This document shows, piece after piece, positions 31,242-51,667 of a DNA stretch of 64,000 nt. The position numbers were made by a program, and so were the translations under genes. The stretch comes from Acidobacteriota bacterium (GTDB lineage: Bacteria > Acidobacteriota > Blastocatellia > Chloracidobacteriales > JADJPF01). Every line of letters begins with the position of its first letter. Position 1 is the first letter of the stretch. The notes beneath the pieces were generated by a model, which saw only the letters and a program-made list of their open reading frames with translations, was not told the DNA's origin and ran no database searches. The stretch lies in the NCBI GenBank assembly GCA_016213785.1, contig JACQZQ010000023.1, forward strand, positions 1 through 64,000. The letters run 5' to 3'.

Positions 31242-32393
31242 TTAAAACCTATTTAATGGATCATCTGAACGAAAAGTTGAGGCTCTTGATAATTCTTCAC
31301 GTGCTTGATCTGCTGAAGTTTGTACTCCACGAATTCTTAAGATAAATTCATCACGGTTTGATGCACCTGCAAGTGCTTCTTCAAAACCAATATAACCTTT
31401 AGTATAGAGTTCATGGAGAGATTGATCAAAGGTTTGCATACCATATTGAGAAGTACCTTGAGCAATAGCATCACGTACTAAACCTGTTTTTTCTTGGTTA
31501 CAAATACAGTCACGAATATAAGGTGTTGAAATTAGGACTTCTGCGGCAGGAACACGTGTCATCATATCAACAGAACGAATTAAGCGCATTGAAATAACCG
31601 CTTTTAGCACAGATGCAAGTTGCAGGCGAATAGCTTTTTGTTGATGTGGTGGAAAGATTGAAACAATACGAGTAATGGTTTCTGTAGCGTCTAAAGTATG
31701 TAAAGTAGATAGTACTAAATAACCTGTTTCTGCGGCAGTAAGTGCAGTTTCAATGGTTTCAAAATCACGCATTTCGCCCACTAGAATTACATCAGGATCT
31801 TGGCGTAAAGCGCCTCTTAAAGCCTCTGAAAAGCTACGAGTATCAACATCAACTTCTCTTTGATTAATAAAGCTTTTTTTATCACGATGAAGAAATTCTA
31901 TAGGATCTTCTACAGTAATAATATGATTAGTCCTAGTAGAATTAATATAATCAATCATTGCTGCAAGAGTAGTAGATTTACCAGACCCAGTAGTTCCTGT
32001 TACTAGAATTAACCCCCGTCTTTCTTCTGCAACACTTTCTACAACTCTAGGTAAACGCAGTTCATCAACCGTTTGAACGGCTGTAGGGATAACACGAAGC
32101 ACCATGCCTACTGTGCCGCGTTGTTGAAAGATATTACATCGAAAGCGCCCTAAGCCTGAGACACCATAAGCAATATCAACCTCATAATGTTCCTTAAAGC
32201 GTTGTTTTTGGCGATTAGACATCATAGAAAATGCCATTGCCAGAGTATCTTCTTGGGTCAAGCGTTGGGATTCAAGGATTGGTTGTAACTCGCCAGTTAC
32301 ACGAATAAAGGGATAACTGCCAGCTTTAATATGAAGATCTGATGCACCTTTAGAACATGCTAATGTTAACAACTCATCTATTTGAACAGACAT
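31242..32393 (-). CDS. pilT: Type IV pilus retraction ATPase PilT
   Basis: This encodes 383 residues with the whole PilT pattern: an N-terminal domain (SDLHIKAGSYPFIRVTGEL), Walker A GTTGSGKST (133-141), the Asp box ITVEDPIEF, Walker B DPDVILVGEMRD, the His box STLHTLDA, and the C-terminal AIRLQLASVLKAVISMRL. PilT hexamers power pilus retraction, twitching and DNA uptake at the inner membrane. PilU or a second PilT paralogue is possible, as no other pil gene is here. The start has an AGGAGA site, and a 30-residue tail after the PilT core is variable. Confidence 0.92.
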   Translation of the reverse strand: MSVQIDELLTLACSKGASDLHIKAGSYPFIRVTGELQPILESQRLTQEDTLAMAFSMMSNRQKQRFKEHYEVDIAYGVSGLGRFRCNIFQQRGTVGMVLRVIPTAVQTVDELRLPRVVESVAEERRGLILVTGTTGSGKSTTLAAMIDYINSTRTNHIITVEDPIEFLHRDKKSFINQREVDVDTRSFSEALRGALRQDPDVILVGEMRDFETIETALTAAETGYLVLSTLHTLDATETITRIVSIFPPHQQKAIRLQLASVLKAVISMRLIRSVDMMTRVPAAEVLISTPYIRDCICNQEKTGLVRDAIAQGTSQYGMQTFDQSLHELYTKGYIGFEEALAGASNRDEFILRIRGVQTSADQAREELSRASTFRSDDPLNRF

Positions 32394-34094: not shown

Positions 34095-37000
34095 CTATGA
34101 TTTTTCCCAATTTCCAGGTAAAAGCATTTGAGCAAAACTTTTTATATTTTGTATTCCCTGTTTTCTCATTTTCTCTTCTGCTTCATTAATAAGCTTAAGC
34201 CCTTCTTCTCCACTAATTAACATACCCTTAGCACGACGCGTTACAATAGAATGTATTTGCATATTAGCCGATATAAATTTTGATTCTGCCGCAGAAAGTT
34301 GAGTTATAGCAAAATCATAAGACTTAGAAAACAAAGCTAGCATAGCTCGACTTAAAGCAGCATAAGCATCTGCATATACTTTATTTTCTTTATCTAATCT
34401 CTTAGCAATACGTTCTGCAATATTTATTAAAGGTTTTGTATTATTTGTTTGTATGGCTAAACACATTGCAGAGCGTGAAGCTAGGTAGAGTGCTTCTATA
34501 AGTAAAAATTGAACCCTAAAAAACATTGCTCGTTTCATTTTAGGCCAACTTTCTTTAACTAATTTCCAAGCAATATCACCTTGATTATTGTAAAGAGCAA
34601 TATCACCTCTAGCAATAAAAGCATAATAATGCTGGGCATGAAAGCCTGTTTGTGACCATTTTTCTATTGCAATATCTATTTCATTACTAGCAAGTTTAAC
34701 TTGATCTTGAATTAAGTAATACATATAGGCAATACGAGTTCTTAAGCTAGTTTCCGCATATAAGTCGCCTCGTTCTTGAGCATCATTTAGGATTTTAATT
34801 ACTCTTTCAGAAATTGTTAAAAGATCTCCTAAAAAGAAAAGTGCTCTCATTAAAAAGACTTCGCTAGTGTAGATTTCCCAACCAACCCCTGAACATTGTT
34901 CGCGTAATATTTTAGCTGCTTGTTTACATAGTTGATAAGCTTCTAGCCAGGAGCCTTGTAAAAAGCTTGACATTCCTGACATTAAAAGAAAATGAGCTTC
35001 GGCTTGAGGATTATCTAGTTTATCAACCAAGGCTTTAGCCATTTGAGTAAATTTTTTTGATCGCTCAACACCACGACTACCAAAAGTAGCAGAAAAGGTA
35101 ATTTCCCAAGAAAAAGCTCTTGATAATCGGTAAGGATCGCCTGCTTTTAATGCATAAAGTAGATGTCTTACTTGAAAATCTGACCCTTTTAGAGTATCTA
35201 CCATTGCAAGACCTGTAGCAACCGCCCAACATATATCTATTTTTACTAACTCCTGTTGGCTTATAGTATGGGGATCTCTTTCTTTAACTTCTAAGCCTTG
35301 TAGCCAAAGGCGAAAGCGCCCAAACAAAAATAAAATCAATGAATGCCAAGGGCTTTTAGGTAGTGACATTCCTAAAGCTGATAAAACATCTCCTAAAACC
35401 GATAAGCCTTCATCTAAATGTCCCCCACGTAGAAGTTGTTCAGCAGCAACTTGTTTAAGAGTTAAAACCGTTATTGAGTCTTCTTCTTCTGCTGCTGCAA
35501 GCAGATAGGCTTGTGCAGCCTCAATTGTACGCCCTGCATTTGTTAGAGCAACGCCTAGTTTTTTCTCTAACCCTCCAATTCTAATTTCTGGTTGTAAATC
35601 TATAGCAAGACGATAAAAATTTGCTGCTTGGTCAAAAGCTAAAGTCTCCATAGCTTTATCTGCGGCTTTAGCAGCATATTCAGCAGCTTTTTTATAATTA
35701 CCCGCTCCTTGAAAATGTACTAGTAAAATTTCTGGGTCTATATCAGCAACCGACTCAAGTATTAAAGCTAGCTTGCTATGGTGAGATTTCAAATCTTCAG
35801 CAGAAAGCTTCTTTATTATAGTCTCACGAATACGATCATGATAAAGCTCTACTTTATCAGACTCTTCAAGTCCACGAACTCTAATTAAGTTATTAGTTTT
35901 AAGTAAAGCAATAGCGGCTTGTTCTTCTTTTCCAAGCTCTGCGGCACGTTTTATAGTAAGTCTTTCAATAGGGCGGCCTGCAACAGCCATTAGGTCTATA
36001 AGCAGGCGGGCTGCTAGAGGGAGCTGAGCAATTCGACTATAAATAACATCTTCTAGTCTCATAACAGACATAGAAATATCATCTACTAATTGTTCTGGAG
36101 AAAAATTTGAGAAAATAAGCTCTCTTTTATAAGTCCCGCTAGTCATATTTTCTTTAGCATAATGAACTAATTCATTGATAAAGTAAGGGTTTCCAGCAGA
36201 TTCTTCAATAATTGTTTCTATTCGATTATTGGAGATTACTTCTTTATCAAAAAGCAGTGAAACTAAACGTTTAGCATCTTCTTTTGATAAAACATCTACA
36301 ATGATTTTTTGAGAATTAACTAGATTAATTATGGGAGAAGCAAATAGGCTTTTTAGAAAAGGGCTAGTTTCAATTTCATCACTACGATAGCTAAAGATCA
36401 TCAATAGTGAAGGAGCTTTTGGAGGTCTTAATAATTCGTTAAGTAAGAAAATGCTATCTAGATCTCCCCACTGTAAATCATCTATATGAATAATAACTGG
36501 GTATTTTGAACTAAGCTCAGTAAATAGCTGTCTTAATGAAGCAAAAGCACGTCGTCTAAGTTCTTGGGAGTCAGGGATATTTAAATTTTTTTTTGCTACT
36601 GCAATTCCTTCTACTTGACGAAGTACAGGAAATAGCTTTGCTAGAGCTAAAGAGTTACTAGGAATTAGAGTAACTAATTCTTCTGGAAGTAAAGTATTTA
36701 AGTATTGGGCTAGGTTATCAATAACACTATCAAAAGCTTTATAAGGAACTGATTCTTGTTCATAACATCTACCATTTAAGATAACTACCCTAGGGCTTTC
36801 TTCAGTAACTTCATTAAGGAAAGAATTAATTAAGACACTCTTTCCCATTCCAGATAGACCTTCTACATAAGCAATTGTTGCATTTGATTGTGATTGAAAA
36901 GAATTTTTTAATTTAGCTAAATGCTCTTCTCTACCTATTAAAAAAGCGTTTTGACGAGGTGAGCTAATTAAAGTTTTAGGTTGAATTGAGCTAGAAAATG

Positions 37001-37814
37001 CACCTAAGCGTCCTAGAATTTCTTCACCTTTTGGTCTTCGTTTAGGCTTACGTTGTAGGAGTTCTTGGCAAAGAGAATCTAGTTCTGGGTCAAGATCAGG
37101 AACAATAAAAGATGGTGGTGGTGAGTCATAGATTTGTTTATCTCTAAGCACATCGCCAAACATGCTATCAAAAGGAAGTTCACCAGTTAAAGCTTCATAA
37201 AACATTACCCCTAAACTATACCAATCGCTTGCTTCACTAGGAGCAAGCCCTGCTACAACTTCAGGAGCTATATATTCTGGCGTACCATAGCTTAAGGTAG
37301 CCTCTCCTATAGTTTTACGTTTTAATTCTGTAACTAGGCCAAAATCTAAGATTGTTACTCTGCCTTCTTCTGTAACAAGGACATTGGAAGGTTTAAGGTC
37401 ACAATGTAATTTGCCTGCTTTATGTAGGGCATAGATTCCTTCTGCTAGTTGAACTACAGCTAGACGGATTCGTTCAATATTTACTTGAGAAGACAAGTAT
37501 TTATCTTTATTTATATATTGAAGAAAATCTACACCTTTTACTAATTCCATAGTAAAGAACCATTCTTCACCATCAGAAAGTAATTCATATAGGGTAACTA
37601 AGTTAGGGTGAACAATTCCAGAAATTGCACGAAATTCTTGCTTAAACTGATAAAGTGCACTTGCTTCAGTATTACGAAGTGTTTTTAGAGCAACAATAGT
37701 TTCTCGTTCTTTATCATAGACTTGGTAGACTTCACCAAAACCACCTGCTCCAAGTAGTTGTTGTAGTTCAAACCTTTTTGTCCCTTTGAAATGTCTGCGG
37801 GTGGAATCGTTCAT
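34095..37814 (-). CDS. Ser/Thr kinase fused to AAA ATPase and helical-repeat sensor
   Basis: This encodes 1239 residues in three parts. The kinase (15-275) has a glycine loop GAGGFGEV (22-29), K44, HCDLKPSN with D139, and DFG D157. The usual HRD arginine is a cysteine, so activation-loop control may differ. The NTPase (290-650) has Walker A GLSGMGKS (319-326) and Walker B IIHIDDLQWGD. The rest (about 690-1239) is TPR-like helical repeats. The layout resembles PknK/STHK and MalT-like signalling proteins, but it has no visible DNA-binding end. It is followed by the DUF4034-like gene. Confidence 0.88.
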   Translation of the reverse strand: MNDSTRRHFKGTKRFELQQLLGAGGFGEVYQVYDKERETIVALKTLRNTEASALYQFKQEFRAISGIVHPNLVTLYELLSDGEEWFFTMELVKGVDFLQYINKDKYLSSQVNIERIRLAVVQLAEGIYALHKAGKLHCDLKPSNVLVTEEGRVTILDFGLVTELKRKTIGEATLSYGTPEYIAPEVVAGLAPSEASDWYSLGVMFYEALTGELPFDSMFGDVLRDKQIYDSPPPSFIVPDLDPELDSLCQELLQRKPKRRPKGEEILGRLGAFSSSIQPKTLISSPRQNAFLIGREEHLAKLKNSFQSQSNATIAYVEGLSGMGKSVLINSFLNEVTEESPRVVILNGRCYEQESVPYKAFDSVIDNLAQYLNTLLPEELVTLIPSNSLALAKLFPVLRQVEGIAVAKKNLNIPDSQELRRRAFASLRQLFTELSSKYPVIIHIDDLQWGDLDSIFLLNELLRPPKAPSLLMIFSYRSDEIETSPFLKSLFASPIINLVNSQKIIVDVLSKEDAKRLVSLLFDKEVISNNRIETIIEESAGNPYFINELVHYAKENMTSGTYKRELIFSNFSPEQLVDDISMSVMRLEDVIYSRIAQLPLAARLLIDLMAVAGRPIERLTIKRAAELGKEEQAAIALLKTNNLIRVRGLEESDKVELYHDRIRETIIKKLSAEDLKSHHSKLALILESVADIDPEILLVHFQGAGNYKKAAEYAAKAADKAMETLAFDQAANFYRLAIDLQPEIRIGGLEKKLGVALTNAGRTIEAAQAYLLAAAEEEDSITVLTLKQVAAEQLLRGGHLDEGLSVLGDVLSALGMSLPKSPWHSLILFLFGRFRLWLQGLEVKERDPHTISQQELVKIDICWAVATGLAMVDTLKGSDFQVRHLLYALKAGDPYRLSRAFSWEITFSATFGSRGVERSKKFTQMAKALVDKLDNPQAEAHFLLMSGMSSFLQGSWLEAYQLCKQAAKILREQCSGVGWEIYTSEVFLMRALFFLGDLLTISERVIKILNDAQERGDLYAETSLRTRIAYMYYLIQDQVKLASNEIDIAIEKWSQTGFHAQHYYAFIARGDIALYNNQGDIAWKLVKESWPKMKRAMFFRVQFLLIEALYLASRSAMCLAIQTNNTKPLINIAERIAKRLDKENKVYADAYAALSRAMLALFSKSYDFAITQLSAAESKFISANMQIHSIVTRRAKGMLISGEEGLKLINEAEEKMRKQGIQNIKSFAQMLLPGNWEKS

Positions 37815-42724: not shown

Positions 42725-43162
42725 TTATTTACCTAACTGAGTTAGTTTTACTAAAAGCTTTAGCTTTCCTTGTTTGGGTTTTAAGCTTTGAAAAGCTAGT
42801 CTTAACTCACTAATAGCTTCTTCTTTACTAATACCTAATTTCCTAGCTGTTAATGCATAATTTAATGCTTCTTCTTTTAATAAAATTTTTTGCTCACTAC
42901 TACTAAAAATTAATTGTCTACCTGCTATAAATAAACCTTCCCAACGATTATCAATTAAAACTCCGCTATCAATAAGCCTTTGGTAAGCTTTTGCTACAAT
43001 GGTTGGGTTAATTTTAAGCTCTTGGGCTAATTCACGAACTGAAATAATTAAACTACCCGGAGAAAGTATGCCTGAGGTTATTAAACGCCTTAAACCTTCT
43101 TCAACTTGTTGCCAAAGAGGTTTCTCATTGCTTGGGTCAACTTTTATTTTATGTGCTAGCAT
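42725..43162 (-). CDS. YtrA-type GntR transcriptional repressor (second copy)
   Basis: This encodes 145 residues. The winged helix (10-85: WQQVEEGLRRLITSGILSPG, VRELAQELKINPTIVAKAYQRL) is followed by a short YtrA-type dimer helix pair, without the FadR/HutC effector domain. It is a clear paralogue of the preceding gene. In the wing, RGEGTF of the first copy is RWEGLF here, and further changes near IISVRE suggest altered DNA recognition. A GGGGGAGAAA site is present. It lies 57 bases after the first copy and 85 bases before the ATPase start. Confidence 0.88.
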   Translation of the reverse strand: MLAHKIKVDPSNEKPLWQQVEEGLRRLITSGILSPGSLIISVRELAQELKINPTIVAKAYQRLIDSGVLIDNRWEGLFIAGRQLIFSSSEQKILLKEEALNYALTARKLGISKEEAISELRLAFQSLKPKQGKLKLLVKLTQLGK

Positions 43163-43219
43163 TTTCTCCCCCTTATTTTAAGTAAAAACCAATCTACTTT
43201 CTTAAGATTAAACTCTTAA

Positions 43220-43627
43220 TTAATACTCTGGCTCAAGAGCGCTATCACTTATTTGAGCTATGGCTTCTCTTAGTTCTTCTACTGCCTCTTCAGCACCAGC
43301 CCCTATTGTAATAACCGTAGTCGCATAACGAATAGCACCTTCTCTAAGTAATTGTTTACGTTCCATTAAACCCATTATAGGTCTATTTTCTGCAACAAAA
43401 GTACCTTCACCTCTCTTTACCATTAATACACCAGCATCAACAAGACGTTGATAAGCTTTTGCTACAGTAGCAGGATTAACACTTAATTCTTTTGCTAAGT
43501 CTCGAACTGAAGGAACAGCTTCCCCAGCTATAAGAGTTCCTGAAGCAACTAGTCGTCGCAAACCTTCTTCGATTTGTCGCCAAATTGGAGCAGCATCTGT
43601 TGGATCTATTCGCAACGATCTATTCAT
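43220..43627 (-). CDS. YtrA-type GntR transcriptional repressor (first copy)
   Basis: This encodes 135 residues. A GntR winged helix (WRQIEEGLRRLVASGTLIAG, VPSVRDLAKELSVNPATVAKAY, RGEGTFV) is followed by the short helical YtrA C-terminus (LLREGAIRYATTVITIGA). Such repressors bind an inverted repeat in front of their own exporter operon and release it under cell-envelope stress. Here the 16-bp inverted repeat at 43668-43703 lies 41 bases upstream of the ATG. The start has a strong GGGAGGAAAG site. It heads the GntR-GntR-ATPase-permease run. Confidence 0.9.
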   Translation of the reverse strand: MNRSLRIDPTDAAPIWRQIEEGLRRLVASGTLIAGEAVPSVRDLAKELSVNPATVAKAYQRLVDAGVLMVKRGEGTFVAENRPIMGLMERKQLLREGAIRYATTVITIGAGAEEAVEELREAIAQISDSALEPEY

Positions 43628-44038: not shown

Positions 44039-47000
44039 ATGAGTTCACAACAAATTAAAACCTTTGTTTCTCTACGCCAATTTGATCAAATTACCCAGTT
44101 TGACTTAGTAAATGATGAGCAAGTTGTAAAAGCCTATCAGTTTACAGAAGACCTACAAAATTTGGGAGCAAAACTATTAACTAATGCTGTAGCAGGTATT
44201 GGTACACAGGCTATTGTTGCTGAACGCGGTATGGGCAAAAGTCATTTACTAAATTTAGTACGTAGCATTGCTAGTGTGCCTAAATTAGTAAACCTATTAG
44301 AGGATTTGAATGCAATAGCTATTTTTCAAAAAGTAGCTTTACCTAAAATACCTGTTGACGGGTTTCCTACTCTAACCTTGGGTTTTGACCCAGAAAAAGG
44401 CTTAAACTTAGTAAAAGCTTATCCAAAAGTTCCTGGGATGGAAAATCTTCCTCCAGCTAATTTAATTGCTTATGTTGATGAAATAATTGAGCAAAAAATT
44501 AATACAGGTGTACAAATAGCACTCTTTATTGATGGAATTTCACAATTTCTTATAGACCAACAACAAGGAGAACCACTACTTCAGTGGTTGCAAGAATTAG
44601 CTAAAGAAGCTGTTAATGGTAAGTTTAGTTTAATGATAACCTTAGATCAAAATGTAGCTGAAGGGCCATTAAAAAAGACTCTTGCTTCAGTATTTAAGTA
44701 TGAATATATCCCAAGTAATACTATAGCTAGTATTATTGATCAAAAAATATTTTATAAAACATCTACACAAAGACGACAAATAGAAAATCTATTTTGGGAT
44801 TTACGTAAGCGAATGCCTCATTTTTCAGAAGCCTCTAATAAATTTATTCAACACTACCCACTGCATCCAATAATATTAAACCTAGTTCCAGCAATGCGTT
44901 TTTATGCCCGTTCATTTTCTTTATTTGGGTTTATTACTGCGGTTTCCTCTCGGGCATTACTTCGTAGGGTATTTAATTTAATTTGTGCAGATGAATTATT
45001 TGATAGCTTTGAATTTGACTTACGTAAGCACCCAAATCTAACAGAAGCTTTTGGAAGTTATGATTACCTTTTTAACTATATTCCTACATTACAACAACCC
45101 CATTCCTTATATGCCAAAATGATGTTAAAAGGGTTACTTTTATTTTCTTTATTAGGTAAATTTGTCACAGCAAAAGACTTAGCTAATTCTGTAATGCTTT
45201 ATGACGAACGTGAACCATTAGCATTTGCTGAAACACTTAACTCTATTATGGCACGTCTAGCGGCTACTAGTAGCGGATTACTTGTAAATGCTGATGGCCC
45301 AGAATTAAGCTATAAATTCTATATTCCAGAGACAAACCCTATTGCTATGTTTTCTAGTAATGCTAAAACATCTGAGCTTTCAAAAGCCTTACTTGATAGC
45401 CAAGCTAGAACTATTACTAAAACTGTAGCTAAAGAAAACCCTCAAACTCAAGTAGCTAAAGACATTGAGGAAATAAGCCCTATAAATGAAATAACTATCC
45501 CACCTCCACCACAAGTTAAATTGCCTATACAACAATCAGGGCAATCTCGTTTTACTACTAAGGAAAATGTTGAGCTTAAAGAAAAAAACCTAGAAAAAGA
45601 TCCTTTGCTACAACCCCAGCAACCTTTAATTAGCCCAGTTCAAAATGAGAGTACAAATAAGCCTTCTCTACCTAAACGTGAGACAAGTGAATTACCCAAA
45701 CCAACTACAACTAGGCTTTTCCCAACTGTGCCTCCACCTCCAATACTACAACAGCAAACTGTTATGGTTTCACCTAGTAGCTCAACTCCTTTACCTATAC
45801 CAGCTAAACCTATCTCTGATACTCAAAGCTCTAGTTCTACTCATTTATCCTTAGATAAATTAACATTTGCTGTAAGTAAAATTTCTGATGATGATATTAG
45901 ATTAGACCAAATATTAATTTCAGGAGGAAAAAAATTCTTTAAAGATTGGCCTTTTACCTTTGAAGATAATAAATTCCGTGATCGTGTAGAAATTAACCTT
46001 AAATGGCGAGGTTCTCTTAGAAAAGGGATACTAAAGTTTGGAGGTGAAACAGAAATCTATAAAGATTTAGACTCTCAAGCTCCTCCTTGTGACTATGATT
46101 GGCAAATTACTGTTTTTAGGGCTTATGCTCCAATGGTTCTACCTCCTCCAGCAGAAGCACCTATTACTCTTTTGCACTGGCAGCCCATATCTCTTAGTAC
46201 ATCTGAGAGGCTTGTACTAAAACAATTACTAATAGTCAATGAAGCAGACTTAGACTTAGGTGATGAAAAAGAAGTAGCTATTTTTAAGAACCAATTAGAA
46301 GATCAAGTAAGTGCTTTGTTTCAAAAAATTTACCTAAAAAGCAGACTTTTAACTAACCAGCATATAGATTTGACTTTACCTAATGAAGGAACTTTTCTTA
46401 GCAATAATTTAACTAAACTATTAGATAAATTATTTGCTAAACGTTACCCTAAACATCCTAATTTTGAAGATTTACTTACATTAGAAACAGTTACAGACCT
46501 GCTCCCTTGGTTATTTCACTCAAAAACTTCACCTAATCTAGACCAAGAAGCAGCATTAGAACAATTTGCTCTTCCATTAAATTTAGTATCTTTTCAAGAA
46601 AATTCTTCTTACAAAATATCAAGTCCTGAAAAAAATGTCCCTCTTGACTCTCCAGTTGGACAGTTTTGGCAAACTATTGAGCAAAATCAAAACATTACTA
46701 AACTTCATGCTTTTAAGTTAGTTCATAAAGAACCTTTTGGACTACAACGGCCTGCCTTACTTTTAATTCTTGCTGCTTTAGCAGGTAGCGGGCAAATTGT
46801 TCTACTAGATGAGCTTAATGAACCAATCCATGATAGTGATGGGCTACGACCAGATGTTGAGTTAGCAGATTTTAGCTCTATACGCTTGCTTAAAGGTGAT
46901 ATTAAACAAGTTAGCTGGAAAGCTGTTAAAAAATCTATCCAAGATCCAGAAGATCTGCAAGATTTTACACTACTTGTTGTAGATGATGATGCAACTATTC

Positions 47001-48241
47001 ATATGGTGCTAAAAATAGCAGCACAGAAGCTTAAATGTAAGATAGAAACGGCAACTGATGGAGTTACAGCCTTAGAAAAATTAAATAACCTATCTGTAGA
47101 CTTGCTTATATCTGATTTACGTATGCCTAATATGACAGGTATAGAGCTTTATCAAAGAATACAAAATAACCCTAGCCTTAAAGGAGTCCCTTTTGTAGTC
47201 CTTTCCTCTATTGACGACGATGAAGAAGTAGCCGCAGCACTTGAACAAGGAGTAGAAGATTATTGGATTAAACCATTAAGAGTAAATGAAATCCAAGCAA
47301 GAATTAAACGCTTGCTAACACGCCGTTATAAAGATGCTGTAGAAATACCTAATACTAAATCAAATGCTAAGGTAGTTTCTAATGAAATTATTAAGGCAAA
47401 TAAAGTTATTCAAACACCAATTACACCAATTGCTAATAATAGTGCTCCTGATAGCCTTAAAACTACACATCTAGATAACCAAAAACTCTTAGATATTTTT
47501 CAACAACAGGCTGAAAAAGAAATTACAATCCTACCAGGTAAACTTGATCTTGATTTGATTAAATCAAATATTTTAAGTAGTTCTAGTAAAGCTAATAAAC
47601 CTGTAAGTAAAGAATCTAGCGAATTAAATTTTAAGGAAAATGAAAAAAAGCCTAGATTGCCTAATATAGAACACCCCCCCATTCCTCATCCACCTATTCC
47701 TAAGCAAACAGACCTACAAGCTAGTATTAGTGTAGTAGAAAAAGTTGAGGAAAAACCTTCAGCTACCAAAGATAAAAAACCTAGTAAAAGCCTTCAAAGA
47801 CCTAGTAAGTCATTAGAGAGACCTAGCGAAGATGGTTTAGCAATTCCTACTAGAACCGATGAAATACCTTCTCTTAGCCAACTCCCAAGTTTTGAAATTA
47901 AAACTGAAAATAAAAAACCTAATCAAGAGGTTACTTCAGAATCATCACCAATATTTTTTAATGTGAATTTGTCAAACTCTGAAGGAATGTTAATGGAAAT
48001 AATGCAGCTTTATAATCATTTTTGGGATACTTGTCGTAAGGTAGGCAACCCTAAATCAATCCCTGAGTATCAAGAATTTAAAGAGTTAGTAATAGCCAAA
48101 GCTACTAAACTAAAAAAACAATTCCATTGGGATGAAGTAACTTTTATTATTGCAATAGAAAATGAGCAAGCTCATATAGATTGTCAAATAAATAGAACAA
48201 GTAATTTTCTAAAAACACCTCCAAAATTTAGAGTCTTATAG
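44039..48241 (+). CDS. Large signalling protein: AAA-type ATPase, response-regulator receiver and MXAN_5187-like C-terminus
   Basis: This encodes 1400 residues. An N-terminal P-loop ATPase has AERGMGKSHLL (Walker A about 61-71) and a Walker B-like ALFIDGISQFL. Residues 470-640 are a Pro/Ser/Thr-rich linker. A middle region (640-960) is unassigned. A complete receiver follows at about 975-1095, with the D982-D984 acidic pocket, phospho-acceptor D1026 in ISDLRMPNMTG and K1078 in WIKP. A second Pro-rich linker precedes a C-terminal ~75-residue domain resembling the MXAN_5187 C-terminus. No signal peptide is visible. The ribosome site is weak. A hairpin terminator follows 19 bases after the stop. 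Confidence 0.75.
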   Translation: MSSQQIKTFVSLRQFDQITQFDLVNDEQVVKAYQFTEDLQNLGAKLLTNAVAGIGTQAIVAERGMGKSHLLNLVRSIASVPKLVNLLEDLNAIAIFQKVALPKIPVDGFPTLTLGFDPEKGLNLVKAYPKVPGMENLPPANLIAYVDEIIEQKINTGVQIALFIDGISQFLIDQQQGEPLLQWLQELAKEAVNGKFSLMITLDQNVAEGPLKKTLASVFKYEYIPSNTIASIIDQKIFYKTSTQRRQIENLFWDLRKRMPHFSEASNKFIQHYPLHPIILNLVPAMRFYARSFSLFGFITAVSSRALLRRVFNLICADELFDSFEFDLRKHPNLTEAFGSYDYLFNYIPTLQQPHSLYAKMMLKGLLLFSLLGKFVTAKDLANSVMLYDEREPLAFAETLNSIMARLAATSSGLLVNADGPELSYKFYIPETNPIAMFSSNAKTSELSKALLDSQARTITKTVAKENPQTQVAKDIEEISPINEITIPPPPQVKLPIQQSGQSRFTTKENVELKEKNLEKDPLLQPQQPLISPVQNESTNKPSLPKRETSELPKPTTTRLFPTVPPPPILQQQTVMVSPSSSTPLPIPAKPISDTQSSSSTHLSLDKLTFAVSKISDDDIRLDQILISGGKKFFKDWPFTFEDNKFRDRVEINLKWRGSLRKGILKFGGETEIYKDLDSQAPPCDYDWQITVFRAYAPMVLPPPAEAPITLLHWQPISLSTSERLVLKQLLIVNEADLDLGDEKEVAIFKNQLEDQVSALFQKIYLKSRLLTNQHIDLTLPNEGTFLSNNLTKLLDKLFAKRYPKHPNFEDLLTLETVTDLLPWLFHSKTSPNLDQEAALEQFALPLNLVSFQENSSYKISSPEKNVPLDSPVGQFWQTIEQNQNITKLHAFKLVHKEPFGLQRPALLLILAALAGSGQIVLLDELNEPIHDSDGLRPDVELADFSSIRLLKGDIKQVSWKAVKKSIQDPEDLQDFTLLVVDDDATIHMVLKIAAQKLKCKIETATDGVTALEKLNNLSVDLLISDLRMPNMTGIELYQRIQNNPSLKGVPFVVLSSIDDDEEVAAALEQGVEDYWIKPLRVNEIQARIKRLLTRRYKDAVEIPNTKSNAKVVSNEIIKANKVIQTPITPIANNSAPDSLKTTHLDNQKLLDIFQQQAEKEITILPGKLDLDLIKSNILSSSSKANKPVSKESSELNFKENEKKPRLPNIEHPPIPHPPIPKQTDLQASISVVEKVEEKPSATKDKKPSKSLQRPSKSLERPSEDGLAIPTRTDEIPSLSQLPSFEIKTENKKPNQEVTSESSPIFFNVNLSNSEGMLMEIMQLYNHFWDTCRKVGNPKSIPEYQEFKELVIAKATKLKKQFHWDEVTFIIAIENEQAHIDCQINRTSNFLKTPPKFRVL

Positions 48242-48757
48242 GCAGACTTATTAAAGTTATTTAACAAAATTTGTCAAAACACTACTGACAACTTTTGTTA
48301 AAACTATTTATTTAATTTTTTAGAAAAAACTCCTGATCTGTTATTTTAAGTATATTTGAATTTTTAAGATCACTTGCCTTTTATCTCAACTAATAGCCTC
48401 TAGTTTACTACTTAAGCAAAACCAAGTTAATTAGCTTATAGTTATATTACTAATCTAACTTTTTCCTAAACTAGCATTTTTAATTAGTTACAAAATTTTC
48501 TAAATATGACTGGCACACTGTTTGCTGAATTTTAGCAAAATCTATTAACATTCTTATAATTAAAGCTTATTTTATTTAAAATTATTCATTAATATTTCAT
48601 TTGCAAAATAACTATTATCCTAGATATACTACTATACTTACTTATTCAAATTAGTTTACTTATTTAATAATACTAGCTCTAGGTTAAGATTAAGTAAAAT
48701 CAATAGATATTGTGTTTTTTAGTTTAGTCCCAAGATGTCATAAAAACGAGGATCTTT
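48242..48757. other. Intergenic stretch between the two large signalling genes
   Basis: This is 516 bases, extremely AT-rich. It holds the terminator at 48260-48302 and presumably the promoter of the PATAN gene. No gene is seen. Confidence 0.6.
48260..48302 (+). terminator. Terminator of the AAA-receiver gene
   Basis: A 17-bp inverted repeat with one mismatch (TTTAACAAAATTTGTCA/TGACAACTTTTGTTAAA) has loop AAACACTAC and is followed by CTATTTATTTAATTTTTT. Confidence 0.75.
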
Positions 48758-51667
48758 ATGTCCGAAATGAAGGAAAGTTTTGTCCCTAAAATATTGGCAG
48801 ACTACCATCAAAATAATCGTACTGGCATCCTTACGCTTAAGCAAAAATCTATTCATAAAACTATACATGTTGAAAATGGTAATGTTGTTTTTGCTACTAC
48901 TAATGTAGAGGCTGAGCAACTAGGTTCACGACTACTTGAATGGGAATTATTAACACCCGAACAACTTATAGAAACAGATAAACTAGCTAAAGAAAATCGC
49001 CGTTTTGGAAAAAGCCTGGTAGACCTAGGTTTTTTTCAACCCTATGAACTACCTGAACTCTTTTATAGACAAACTAATAGAATTATTTTCTCTACTTTTG
49101 GTTGGAAAAATTTTGATTTTCGCTTTACCAGATGTGCACTACCAGAATATGAGGCTAAAAACTTTATTCCTATCCCTGAAATCCTATTAGAAGGAATGCG
49201 CTACTTAGAGGATATAAATTTAATCACTGAATGCTTAGGTAACTTGACCAGATCATTTAAGCTTAATATGCCTTTAGATTCTATTTACCAAAGTCTTAAA
49301 CCAAACTCTTATGAAACAGAGCTTTTGGCTGGTTTAGAAAATACTGTTTTTACACCAAAAAACCTATTAGACCTACCAAATATAGAAGCAGAAACCGTAA
49401 TTAAAACCTTATGCGTTCTAAATTTACTGGAAATGCTAGTAGAAACTAATACTTCATCTATAACCCCTTTAGCACCTCTAGTAGATGACCTTTCTCTACA
49501 AATGAATAGCCTATTAGTTAGCACTAAAGCACCTGACCAGGAAATTGAAAAGCCTAAAACCTCTTCACAAAATACTCTTTCTGCTTTTCCAAGCATTCCT
49601 AATGTTGTTCCTATAAATCAGTCTAATAATGTTTCTAGGTCTGTATATAATGATTCTAACGCAGCTACAGCAGTTACTAATAGTAGCGCTTCTTTAGAAC
49701 ATAGAAGCGTTATGGAATTTTGTTATGAAATAGAAAATAAAGTTAGTGCAATTAATAGAGGAGCATCTCTTTATGAAGTATTAGAAGTAGATTCTCATGC
49801 AAGTTTAGACCAAATAAAAACCGCTTATGAGAAATTAACTAAGCATTTTCATCCAAATCGTCAAAAAGAGCTATCTGTTTATAATACTGATCTTAGTACA
49901 AACCTAAATTATATAACTACAGCTATTAAACAAGCTTACCAGATATTAATAGCTAAAGCACCTCAGCCTAGACCAGTTCAAAATACTCCATCTTCAATTA
50001 GTATTAGACCTAATGCAAATACTCTTCCTTCTATGACTAATAGTGGGGTTAGTAGAATTTCTCAAGCACCAAATCAAGCTCAACAAGTAAAACCTCTTTC
50101 TCCTCAAATCACTCCAACTACTCCTAAACTTTTAAGTCAACAAGAGGTTATGGAGTTTTGCTATTTGATAGAAAATAAACTAAATATGATTAAAGGAGAA
50201 TCTACTCACTACCAAGTATTAGAAATAGAAAGAAATGCAAGTTATGAAGCTATAGACCAAGCATATCAACAGCTAATGTTACTCTTTGATGTAAAAAAAC
50301 AAGAAAACCTTTCTGCCTATGGTCTTAATATGAACACTCAGCTAGAAGAGATTTCTAAAGCTATTCGTTTGGCGGCTGAAGTACTTAGGGATACACAAAA
50401 GAGGCAAATTTATGATGATCGCATAGGAAAATCTCTTAGAAGAAATGCAGGACAATATTCCACAACTAGCCAAGCAGATCTTAGAAATCCTACTCCTTCT
50501 TCAATTGTTCGGCCAGAAATAAAATATCCAAATCCCCCTTTACAATCTTCACAGCCTTCACAGCCTTCACAATTTTCACAGCCCCAACAATCTTCACAGC
50601 CTTCACAGCCTTCACAATTAGACTCTAAATATAGCGTTGCTCAAAATAAACCTGTGTCTAGCCCAATGCCTCCTTTAATGTCTGACTCAAGACTACGTAG
50701 CCAACAAGGAGGAAATATCGCTAACAATCCATCACAAAGTAGTGCTAGTTATTCAACTCCTTCATCACTTTATAATTCCTCTGCTGGGCAAAGAATTCCT
50801 AGTGAAAACCTACCAGCCCCAAGTAACCAAAGAGCTTTTAGTGAAGACCTTAACAGGTCTTCAGCAGGTACTAAAATACCGCCTATTACTAACCCTACAG
50901 GATTCCCAGCCCTTAATAGAAATTCAGGAAATGTTGACTTAAATCGTTCTAATCCTGGAAGTAAACCGTCTATTACTATAGACCCTAGCCGCAATTCTTT
51001 ACCTACTTTTACTCCTATTACAGCATCAAAGGCTGCTAATCCTAGCCAAGCTCAACCTGCTCAGCCTGCTCAGCCTGCTCAGCCTGCTCAACCTGTTCAA
51101 CCTGCTCAGCCTGCTCAAGCTATAAAACCTAGCCAAGCTCAGCCAGCAACTAATCCTTCTAATCCACCTGTAGCTAAAACTCCTTCTAATCCATCTAACG
51201 AACTACCTCAAGGGACTAAATCAATACCTGGTGGAAAAGGAAAAACATTTACTGCTACTGAATATTACTTAAGGTCTATTGAATTATGTGATAAAGAAAA
51301 ATACACTGAAGCAATAGAATCTCTTTTAATGGCATTAAAACTTTCTCCTAAGGATGGAGAATATTGGGCGCAACTAGCACGTGCTTATAGCAACATACCT
51401 GGCTATGAAAAAGATACTTTAGCAGCCTACCAAAAAGCTAATGAATATGCACCTAAGGAAATTGGTTATTTATTAGAATTAGGTGATTTTTTACGTAAAC
51501 ATGGTTTTAAGCAAAAAGCAGCAGAAGTTTACAATGGTGTATTAAATATTCGTCCTCAAAATATAAAAGCACAAACAGCGCTTGCTGAACTTGTCCAAGA
51601 ATCTAGAGAAGAGGAATCTGATACTAAAACTAGAGGTTTTTGGTCAAAATGGCTAAAAAATAGCTAA
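48758..51667 (+). CDS. PATAN (DUF4388) protein with two degenerate J domains, low-complexity linker and TPR
   Basis: This encodes 969 residues. Residues 1-140 fit PATAN/DUF4388 (RTGILTLKQ...VENGNVVFATT, LVDLGFF), a scaffold domain of bacterial signalling. Two J-like domains follow, at about 325-405 and 465-560. The first has HPN (H365, P366, N367) in place of HPD, and the second has LFDVKK at that spot, so Hsp70 stimulation is doubtful. Residues 560-830 are Ser/Gln/Pro-rich with QPS and AQP repeats. TPR helices (about 835-955) close the protein. A GAGG site precedes the ATG. It follows the AAA-receiver gene on the same strand. Confidence 0.78.
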   Translation: MSEMKESFVPKILADYHQNNRTGILTLKQKSIHKTIHVENGNVVFATTNVEAEQLGSRLLEWELLTPEQLIETDKLAKENRRFGKSLVDLGFFQPYELPELFYRQTNRIIFSTFGWKNFDFRFTRCALPEYEAKNFIPIPEILLEGMRYLEDINLITECLGNLTRSFKLNMPLDSIYQSLKPNSYETELLAGLENTVFTPKNLLDLPNIEAETVIKTLCVLNLLEMLVETNTSSITPLAPLVDDLSLQMNSLLVSTKAPDQEIEKPKTSSQNTLSAFPSIPNVVPINQSNNVSRSVYNDSNAATAVTNSSASLEHRSVMEFCYEIENKVSAINRGASLYEVLEVDSHASLDQIKTAYEKLTKHFHPNRQKELSVYNTDLSTNLNYITTAIKQAYQILIAKAPQPRPVQNTPSSISIRPNANTLPSMTNSGVSRISQAPNQAQQVKPLSPQITPTTPKLLSQQEVMEFCYLIENKLNMIKGESTHYQVLEIERNASYEAIDQAYQQLMLLFDVKKQENLSAYGLNMNTQLEEISKAIRLAAEVLRDTQKRQIYDDRIGKSLRRNAGQYSTTSQADLRNPTPSSIVRPEIKYPNPPLQSSQPSQPSQFSQPQQSSQPSQPSQLDSKYSVAQNKPVSSPMPPLMSDSRLRSQQGGNIANNPSQSSASYSTPSSLYNSSAGQRIPSENLPAPSNQRAFSEDLNRSSAGTKIPPITNPTGFPALNRNSGNVDLNRSNPGSKPSITIDPSRNSLPTFTPITASKAANPSQAQPAQPAQPAQPAQPVQPAQPAQAIKPSQAQPATNPSNPPVAKTPSNPSNELPQGTKSIPGGKGKTFTATEYYLRSIELCDKEKYTEAIESLLMALKLSPKDGEYWAQLARAYSNIPGYEKDTLAAYQKANEYAPKEIGYLLELGDFLRKHGFKQKAAEVYNGVLNIRPQNIKAQTALAELVQESREEESDTKTRGFWSKWLKNS
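50540..50622 (+). repeat. In-gene TTCACAGCC tandem repeats (QPS)
   Basis: TTCACAGCC-type 9-mers recur in several near-exact copies, encoding a Ser-Gln-Pro tract within the PATAN protein linker. Confidence 0.8.
51040..51130 (+). repeat. In-gene CAGCCTGCT tandem repeats (AQP)
   Basis: About seven near-exact CARCCTGCT 9-mers encode an Ala-Gln-Pro tract in the same linker. Single-base variants among the copies suggest a repeat array prone to length change. Confidence 0.85.

Follow-up and report, generated by a model that had tools for sequence, protein, structure and literature searches.

The window analysed in this study is a stretch of 64,000 nt from Acidobacteriota bacterium GCA_016213785.1 (contig JACQZQ010000023.1, positions 1-64,000 of the forward strand). 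Two genes, here called A and B, lie side by side in it, and the original prediction had described their products as very long proteins with unusual domain orders. In the ORF listing of the window both genes were found to be intact plus-strand ORFs with ends exactly as predicted, and their domains follow one another in the order that had been claimed. The features of the locus are as follows.

44039 to 48241, + strand: gene A (branch A1, see below), 1400 aa; BrxC/DUF6079-like AAA+, linker, middle domain, receiver, linker, MXAN_5187_C-like domain
44039 to 45328, + strand: N-terminal AAA+ region of A, aa 1-430, DUF6079/BrxC-like (PF19557, PADLOC BrxC and alignment with the full-length canonical paralogue)
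44219 to 44242, + strand: Walker A, AERGMGKS, aa 61-68; the first Gly of GxxGxGKS is Ala
44516 to 44539, + strand: Walker B, IALFIDGI, aa 160-167; Gly in place of the usual catalytic Glu (IDG)
45329 to 45838, + strand: Pro/Ser/Gln-rich linker of A, aa 431-600 (composition and comparison of two species)
45845 to 46888, + strand: middle domain of A, aa 603-950; the canonical BrxC-like paralogue has a collinear middle region
46970 to 47308, + strand: receiver domain of A, aa 978-1090 (PF00072 match at aa 979-1090, 83.3 bits)
47999 to 48172, + strand: MXAN_5187_C-like domain of A (NF041621)
48601 to 48630, + strand: promoter-like site before B, TTGCAA-18-TATACT, inside a block conserved in the sister species
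48758 to 51667, + strand: gene B, PATAN-J-J-TPR, 969 aa
48782 to 49213, + strand: PATAN/DUF4388 domain of B, aa 9-152 (PF14332, 58.3 bits, cut-off 25)
49001 to 49072, + strand: MshEN-type 24-residue motif RFGKSLVDLGFFQPYELPELFYRQ, aa 82-105 of B, a strict pattern match in the helical insertion of PATAN
49769 to 49948, + strand: J domain 1 of B, aa 338-397, HPN (H365-P366-N367) instead of HPD
50207 to 50461, + strand: J domain 2 of B, aa 484-568, DVK (D511-V512-K513) instead of HPD
50537 to 51130, + strand: linker of B, P/Q/S/A repeats of low complexity with 9-base periods
51257 to 51607, + strand: C-terminal TPR region of B, aa 834-950 (profile match)

Upstream of A the window also holds a PilT-like ATPase gene (31242-32393), a gene for a Ser/Thr kinase-AAA_16 protein (34095-37814) and, ahead of an ABC transporter, tandem genes for GntR-type regulators that are apparently a duplicated pair (42725-43627). 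The genome of the window is referred to as G000, one other species of the genus as G001, and two more genomes of the same family as G002 and G003; this family, f1, comprises G000-G003, and f2 is its sister family. When G000 and G001 were compared, the named domains of A and B were 69-89% identical in these two species whereas the linkers were 23-58% identical, which indicates that the domains are real and under constraint. The long Pro/Ser-rich linkers that had been predicted for both proteins are present, with 17% P and 11% S in aa 451-600 of A and 18% P and 18% S in aa 566-815 of B.

The predicted make-up of A, namely a P-loop ATPase coupled to a receiver and an MXAN_5187-like end, was also borne out, although for the last domain the NF041621 score in A is 22.3-23.9 bits, which is below the cut-off of 30 that is just passed by the G001 orthologue (30.3 bits). 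What the original prediction had missed is that A is a relative of BrxC/DUF6079 and that the PATAN domain of B carries a MshEN-like motif. A scored 40 bits with the DUF6079 profile PF19557 against a curated cut-off of 23, and PADLOC gave weak BrxC/PglY matches, one of them to BrxC at the N-terminus (E = 1.2e-6) and one to BrxC within the middle domain (aa 782-856, 8.5e-5). The Walker-B Glu is missing not only from the window protein but from the A-family members of f1 and from most others; nearly all members have DG, DT or DD, and DE is rare. The key residues of the receiver are all intact (acidic pocket D982-D984, acceptor D1026, S1056 and K1078), and in the window no kinase gene adjoins A. 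The C-terminal coiled-coil or dimerisation arm of BrxC is absent from A, and the receiver and the MXAN_5187_C-like domain stand in its place. A PDB profile search with the A family matched nothing meaningful, and the structure predicted for the N-terminus of A from two sequences only had a mean pLDDT of 39, a quality insufficient for fold searching.

The A family occurs in most of the Blastocatellia genomes examined and its tree is largely vertical. Its canonical member, A0, is in G000 a protein of 1233 aa (L072) that matches DUF6079 over almost its full length (82.7 bits, in stretches that include aa 669-1214), matches the BrxC models too, and still matches the DUF6079 model in the part where the arm of A has been swapped. 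The branch of the window gene, A1, ends in a receiver and MXAN_5187_C, and the sister branch, A2, ends in an MXAN_5187_C-like domain and has no receiver; both branches are found in f1. In the tree, A1 and A2 form one clade that is confined to f1 (support 100/100; A1 99/99; A2 100/100), and the receiver-bearing form was found in the four f1 genomes only. Judged by these sequences, A is a DUF6079/BrxC-type AAA+ protein that probably arose in f1 by duplication of a class-wide chromosomal BrxC homologue. A probable course of events is that A0 was duplicated in f1 and that its C-terminal arm then gave way to an MXAN_5187_C-like domain or, in A1, to a receiver together with MXAN_5187_C. The A2 gene of G000 (L071:8098-14259), whose product of 2053 aa contains a very long insertion, lies between genes for an M50 peptidase-TPR protein and a Ser/Thr kinase.

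Whether A and B form a unit, as had been proposed, is a separate question, and the survey of gene neighbourhoods gave a divided answer. G001 retains the A1-B pair, and when contigs were scanned for close relatives the pair of this sister species alone was found. Beyond the genus the adjacency does not hold: the gene after A1 in G003 is pyrF, and apparently the adjacency does not hold in G002 either, where a queC-like gene lies 3' of A1 on a short contig that lacks the 5' side (both gene names were read from the protein sequences). Since these neighbours differ, there is no conserved gene unit across the family or the Acidobacteriota. Within the window the gap between A and B is 516 bp and contains no known RNA family, and an A-B operon was rejected on account of the size of this gap and the promoter-like site before B that is conserved in G001; A1-B is thus neither an obvious nor a conserved operon. 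It is a substantial possibility, although we rate it below even, that A and B come from two expanded families, are unrelated, became neighbours by chance in one genus and form no functional unit. Such a reading is in keeping with the confinement of the adjacency to the genus, with the gap and its promoter-like site, with the different neighbours of A1 in G003 and G002, and with the large local expansion of PATAN, as there are 45 DUF4388 matches in G000, B included. With so many PATAN genes the chance that some A gene adjoins some PATAN gene is about 5% in G003 and such genomes, and hence the linkage of A to PATAN is no more than suggestive.

Two observations count against chance alone. In G003, at a separate locus, A2 is divergent, with a spacing of 72 bp, to a PATAN-TPR gene, which is followed by B's best homologue in this genome (hence an A2-PATAN-TPR/PATAN-J-J-TPR cluster) and then by a gene for a REC-PAS-kinase-REC hybrid histidine kinase. 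In f2, REC, PATAN, TPR and MXAN_5187_C are fused in one protein of the order TPR-REC-PATAN-MXAN_5187_C (L146:7223-9505 and L148:7030-9309). Together with the pairing in G001, the A2-PATAN-kinase cluster and the f2 fusion make a functional link between A and B plausible at the level of gene and domain arrangement. By tree distance the receivers nearest to that of A1 are those of the f2 fusions, in a tree whose backbone is poorly resolved. The fusion gene at L146 sits between genes for a SpoIIE-phosphatase/GAF protein and a REC-zinc-ribbon protein.

In B, the predicted combination of PATAN, two broken J domains and TPR was recovered in full. The insertion in its PATAN domain resembles MshEN, whose c-di-GMP motif is given in PMC5013675 as a tandem 24-residue RLGxx...LxxxLxxQ. 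Measured against two full motifs B falls short, as motif II is a full match and the preceding half, motif I, is degenerate (R to Q, G to E and Q to A). The MshEN profile NF053729 gave 23.7 bits with B and 23.7-36 bits, with E down to 4e-9, with the PATAN proteins studied here, against a cut-off of 38, and of 22 proteins checked 7 had the strict second motif at the same place, B and its orthologue among them. A PATAN insertion with an MshEN-like motif was also seen at L079:717-2582 and L102:7264-8943. Binding of c-di-GMP by B is possible on this motif evidence, and about ten GGDEF matches are present in G000. The predicted structure of the PATAN region of B, made from two sequences only, reached a mean pLDDT of 55, which was likewise insufficient for searching by fold. 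The supplement of the MshEN paper aside, the resemblance between PATAN and MshEN is not described in the searched literature, in which DUF4388 appeared in one unrelated paper. If it holds, it would provide a testable explanation for the presence of PATAN proteins in c-di-GMP and pilus circuits.

These circuits bear on the suggestion in the original prediction that the pair serves a surface or pilus function. In Synechocystis, PATAN regulators have PilB1 as a binding partner (PMC7690835, PMC9090330), and one could suppose that A-B is a type IV pilus regulatory module that works like the cyanobacterial PATAN-REC regulators binding PilB. G000 does have pilus ATPases along with its GGDEF matches, and short PATAN genes do occur within the pilB-pilT cluster of f1 members, namely a PATAN-only gene in three genera (G000, G002 and G003; L135:6927-7688, L136:7368-8099 and L137:13337-14071). 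However, neither A nor B is in the pilB-pilT cluster, the nearest T2SSE/PilT-type gene being 11.6 kb upstream of A, and REC and PATAN are here split over separate proteins, so that we consider a pilus module of this kind unlikely. As B does not adjoin pilus genes, a surface or pilus role of A and B stays a guess.

The homology of A to DUF6079/BrxC also invites the reading that A serves in defence, as a BREX-like ATPase, stray or minimal, that acts against phages and is triggered through the receiver. PglZ is the defining hallmark partner of BREX. No PglZ was found in G000 or in 54 of the 58 genomes searched, from which it follows that A0 is a BREX-free BrxC homologue, and no BREX genes were found in the neighbourhood of A in the window. 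A defence role is for these reasons unlikely; considering besides that the family occurs widely in the class and has a tree that is vertical for the most part, that the genes show genus synteny and not an island pattern, and that the C-terminus of A has been swapped, we regard it as very improbable. Full-length BREX-free BrxC/DUF6079 homologues (e.g., L072:9205-12906, L077:2657-6340 and L085:9251-12799) often lie beside genes for DUF2520 and M48 peptidase proteins, and a DUF2520 gene adjoins A0 at 8 loci. The receiver-fused, BREX-free BrxC-like ATPase, as recognised from its sequence, is the strongest novel point of this analysis; in the literature search no paper named MXAN_5187 and none linked BrxC with a receiver domain.

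The J domains of B matched the DnaJ profile PF00226 with 58.4 bits in total against a cut-off of 27.8. The HPD motif is needed for stimulating the ATPase of Hsp70, and it is lost from both J domains of B and of its G001 orthologue. PATAN-J-TPR modules stand alone or behind Ser/Thr kinases, and most single-J relatives of B keep HPD; in the double-J proteins J2 lacked HPD in every case seen, and J1 has HPD in two and HPN, HPS or NPS in the others. The J domains of B are 69-80% identical between G000 and G001, and J2, though devoid of HPD, is 80% identical, which suggests that it is retained for something other than activation of Hsp70, probably binding. That B is an active Hsp40-like co-chaperone which feeds clients, perhaps A, to DnaK is therefore hardly credible with HPD gone from both domains in two species, notwithstanding the Pfam DnaJ matches and the HPD of most single-J relatives. 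At L073 (G000:C31:136000-155900) PATAN-J(-J)-TPR genes are interleaved with genes for a Ser/Thr kinase-PATAN-J fusion, a likely histidine kinase and an NtrC-like regulator. No literature joining the PATAN domain, DnaJ and TPR was found by search.

The reading that we prefer, tentatively and at a little under an even chance, is that A acts as an output protein of two-component signalling and has a domesticated, BREX-free AAA+ scaffold of the BrxC type, that B is a scaffold or adaptor, and that A and B or their paralogues probably belong to one signalling network. It has been shown that BrxC binds ATP at the AAA+ dimer interface, that its last 80 residues dimerise it, and that ATP-dependent dimers become more stable when the Walker-B E is changed to Q (PMC13326643). 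In A, a histidine kinase would phosphorylate D1026, and the receiver and C-terminal domain, being at the site of the dimerising arm of BrxC, would alter the self-association of the protein; phosphorylation-controlled self-association of A, inferred from this arrangement, is the simplest model. As the Walker-B Glu is missing in A1, hydrolysis is probably weak, and the AAA+ part would then probably bind ATP as an assembly switch and not act as a motor. The PATAN domain of B may bind a partner and possibly sense a nucleotide through the MshEN-like insertion, and the two J-like domains, no longer activating Hsp70, may serve alongside TPR as protein-protein modules. A and B, or paralogues of them, would share a signalling network, perhaps related to the surface or the type IV pilus, without a fixed operon. 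A bolder version, which we put forward as a speculation and think unlikely as a whole, is that a class-wide, BREX-free BrxC-type AAA+ scaffold was recruited to two-component signalling by the swap of its arm for a receiver and acts with PATAN-J-J-TPR adaptors in a kinase-controlled assembly. A would then be a response-regulator ATPase of a new class, and the BrxC fold would have a role outside defence.

Several known systems resemble parts of this arrangement. The closest to A is BrxC/PglY (DUF6079) of BREX, which shares the N-terminal ORC/Cdc6-type AAA+ and the middle region and with which the canonical paralogue A0 is collinear over nearly the whole model; A differs in having no PglZ or other BREX genes, in the replaced Walker-B Glu, and in the receiver and MXAN_5187_C-like domain that stand where the arm was. 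NtrC-type receiver-AAA+ proteins, in which a phospho-receiver controls an AAA+ domain, are comparable to A in how they work only, since A belongs to another AAA+ clade, matched no sigma-54 activator domain, and has its receiver towards the C-terminus. For B, the Ser/Thr kinase-PATAN-J-TPR proteins (e.g., L094) have the same PATAN-J-TPR module, but with a kinase in front and one J domain, in which HPD is intact in most copies. The cyanobacterial PATAN-REC proteins PixG, PixE and LsiR use PATAN in two-component output as may be the case here, but in the present pair B carries PATAN along with J and TPR, and A carries the receiver. The f2 protein TPR-REC-PATAN-MXAN_5187_C (L146 and L148) unites in one chain domain types that are split over A and B, but without an ATPase or J domains. 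BrxC is the central scaffold of a phage-defence complex, and a class-wide BREX-free homologue with a receiver-wired branch suggests housekeeping or signalling uses of this scaffold, an idea that is directly testable with A0 against the receiver version A1. Finally, PorX is a receiver-PglZ response regulator, that is, a BREX-type core domain in two-component signalling (cited in PMC12839542). Both PorX and A couple a BREX-type core to a receiver, PorX carrying PglZ and A the BrxC-type ATPase, and with PorX, A would make two core BREX parts that are also used in two-component signalling.
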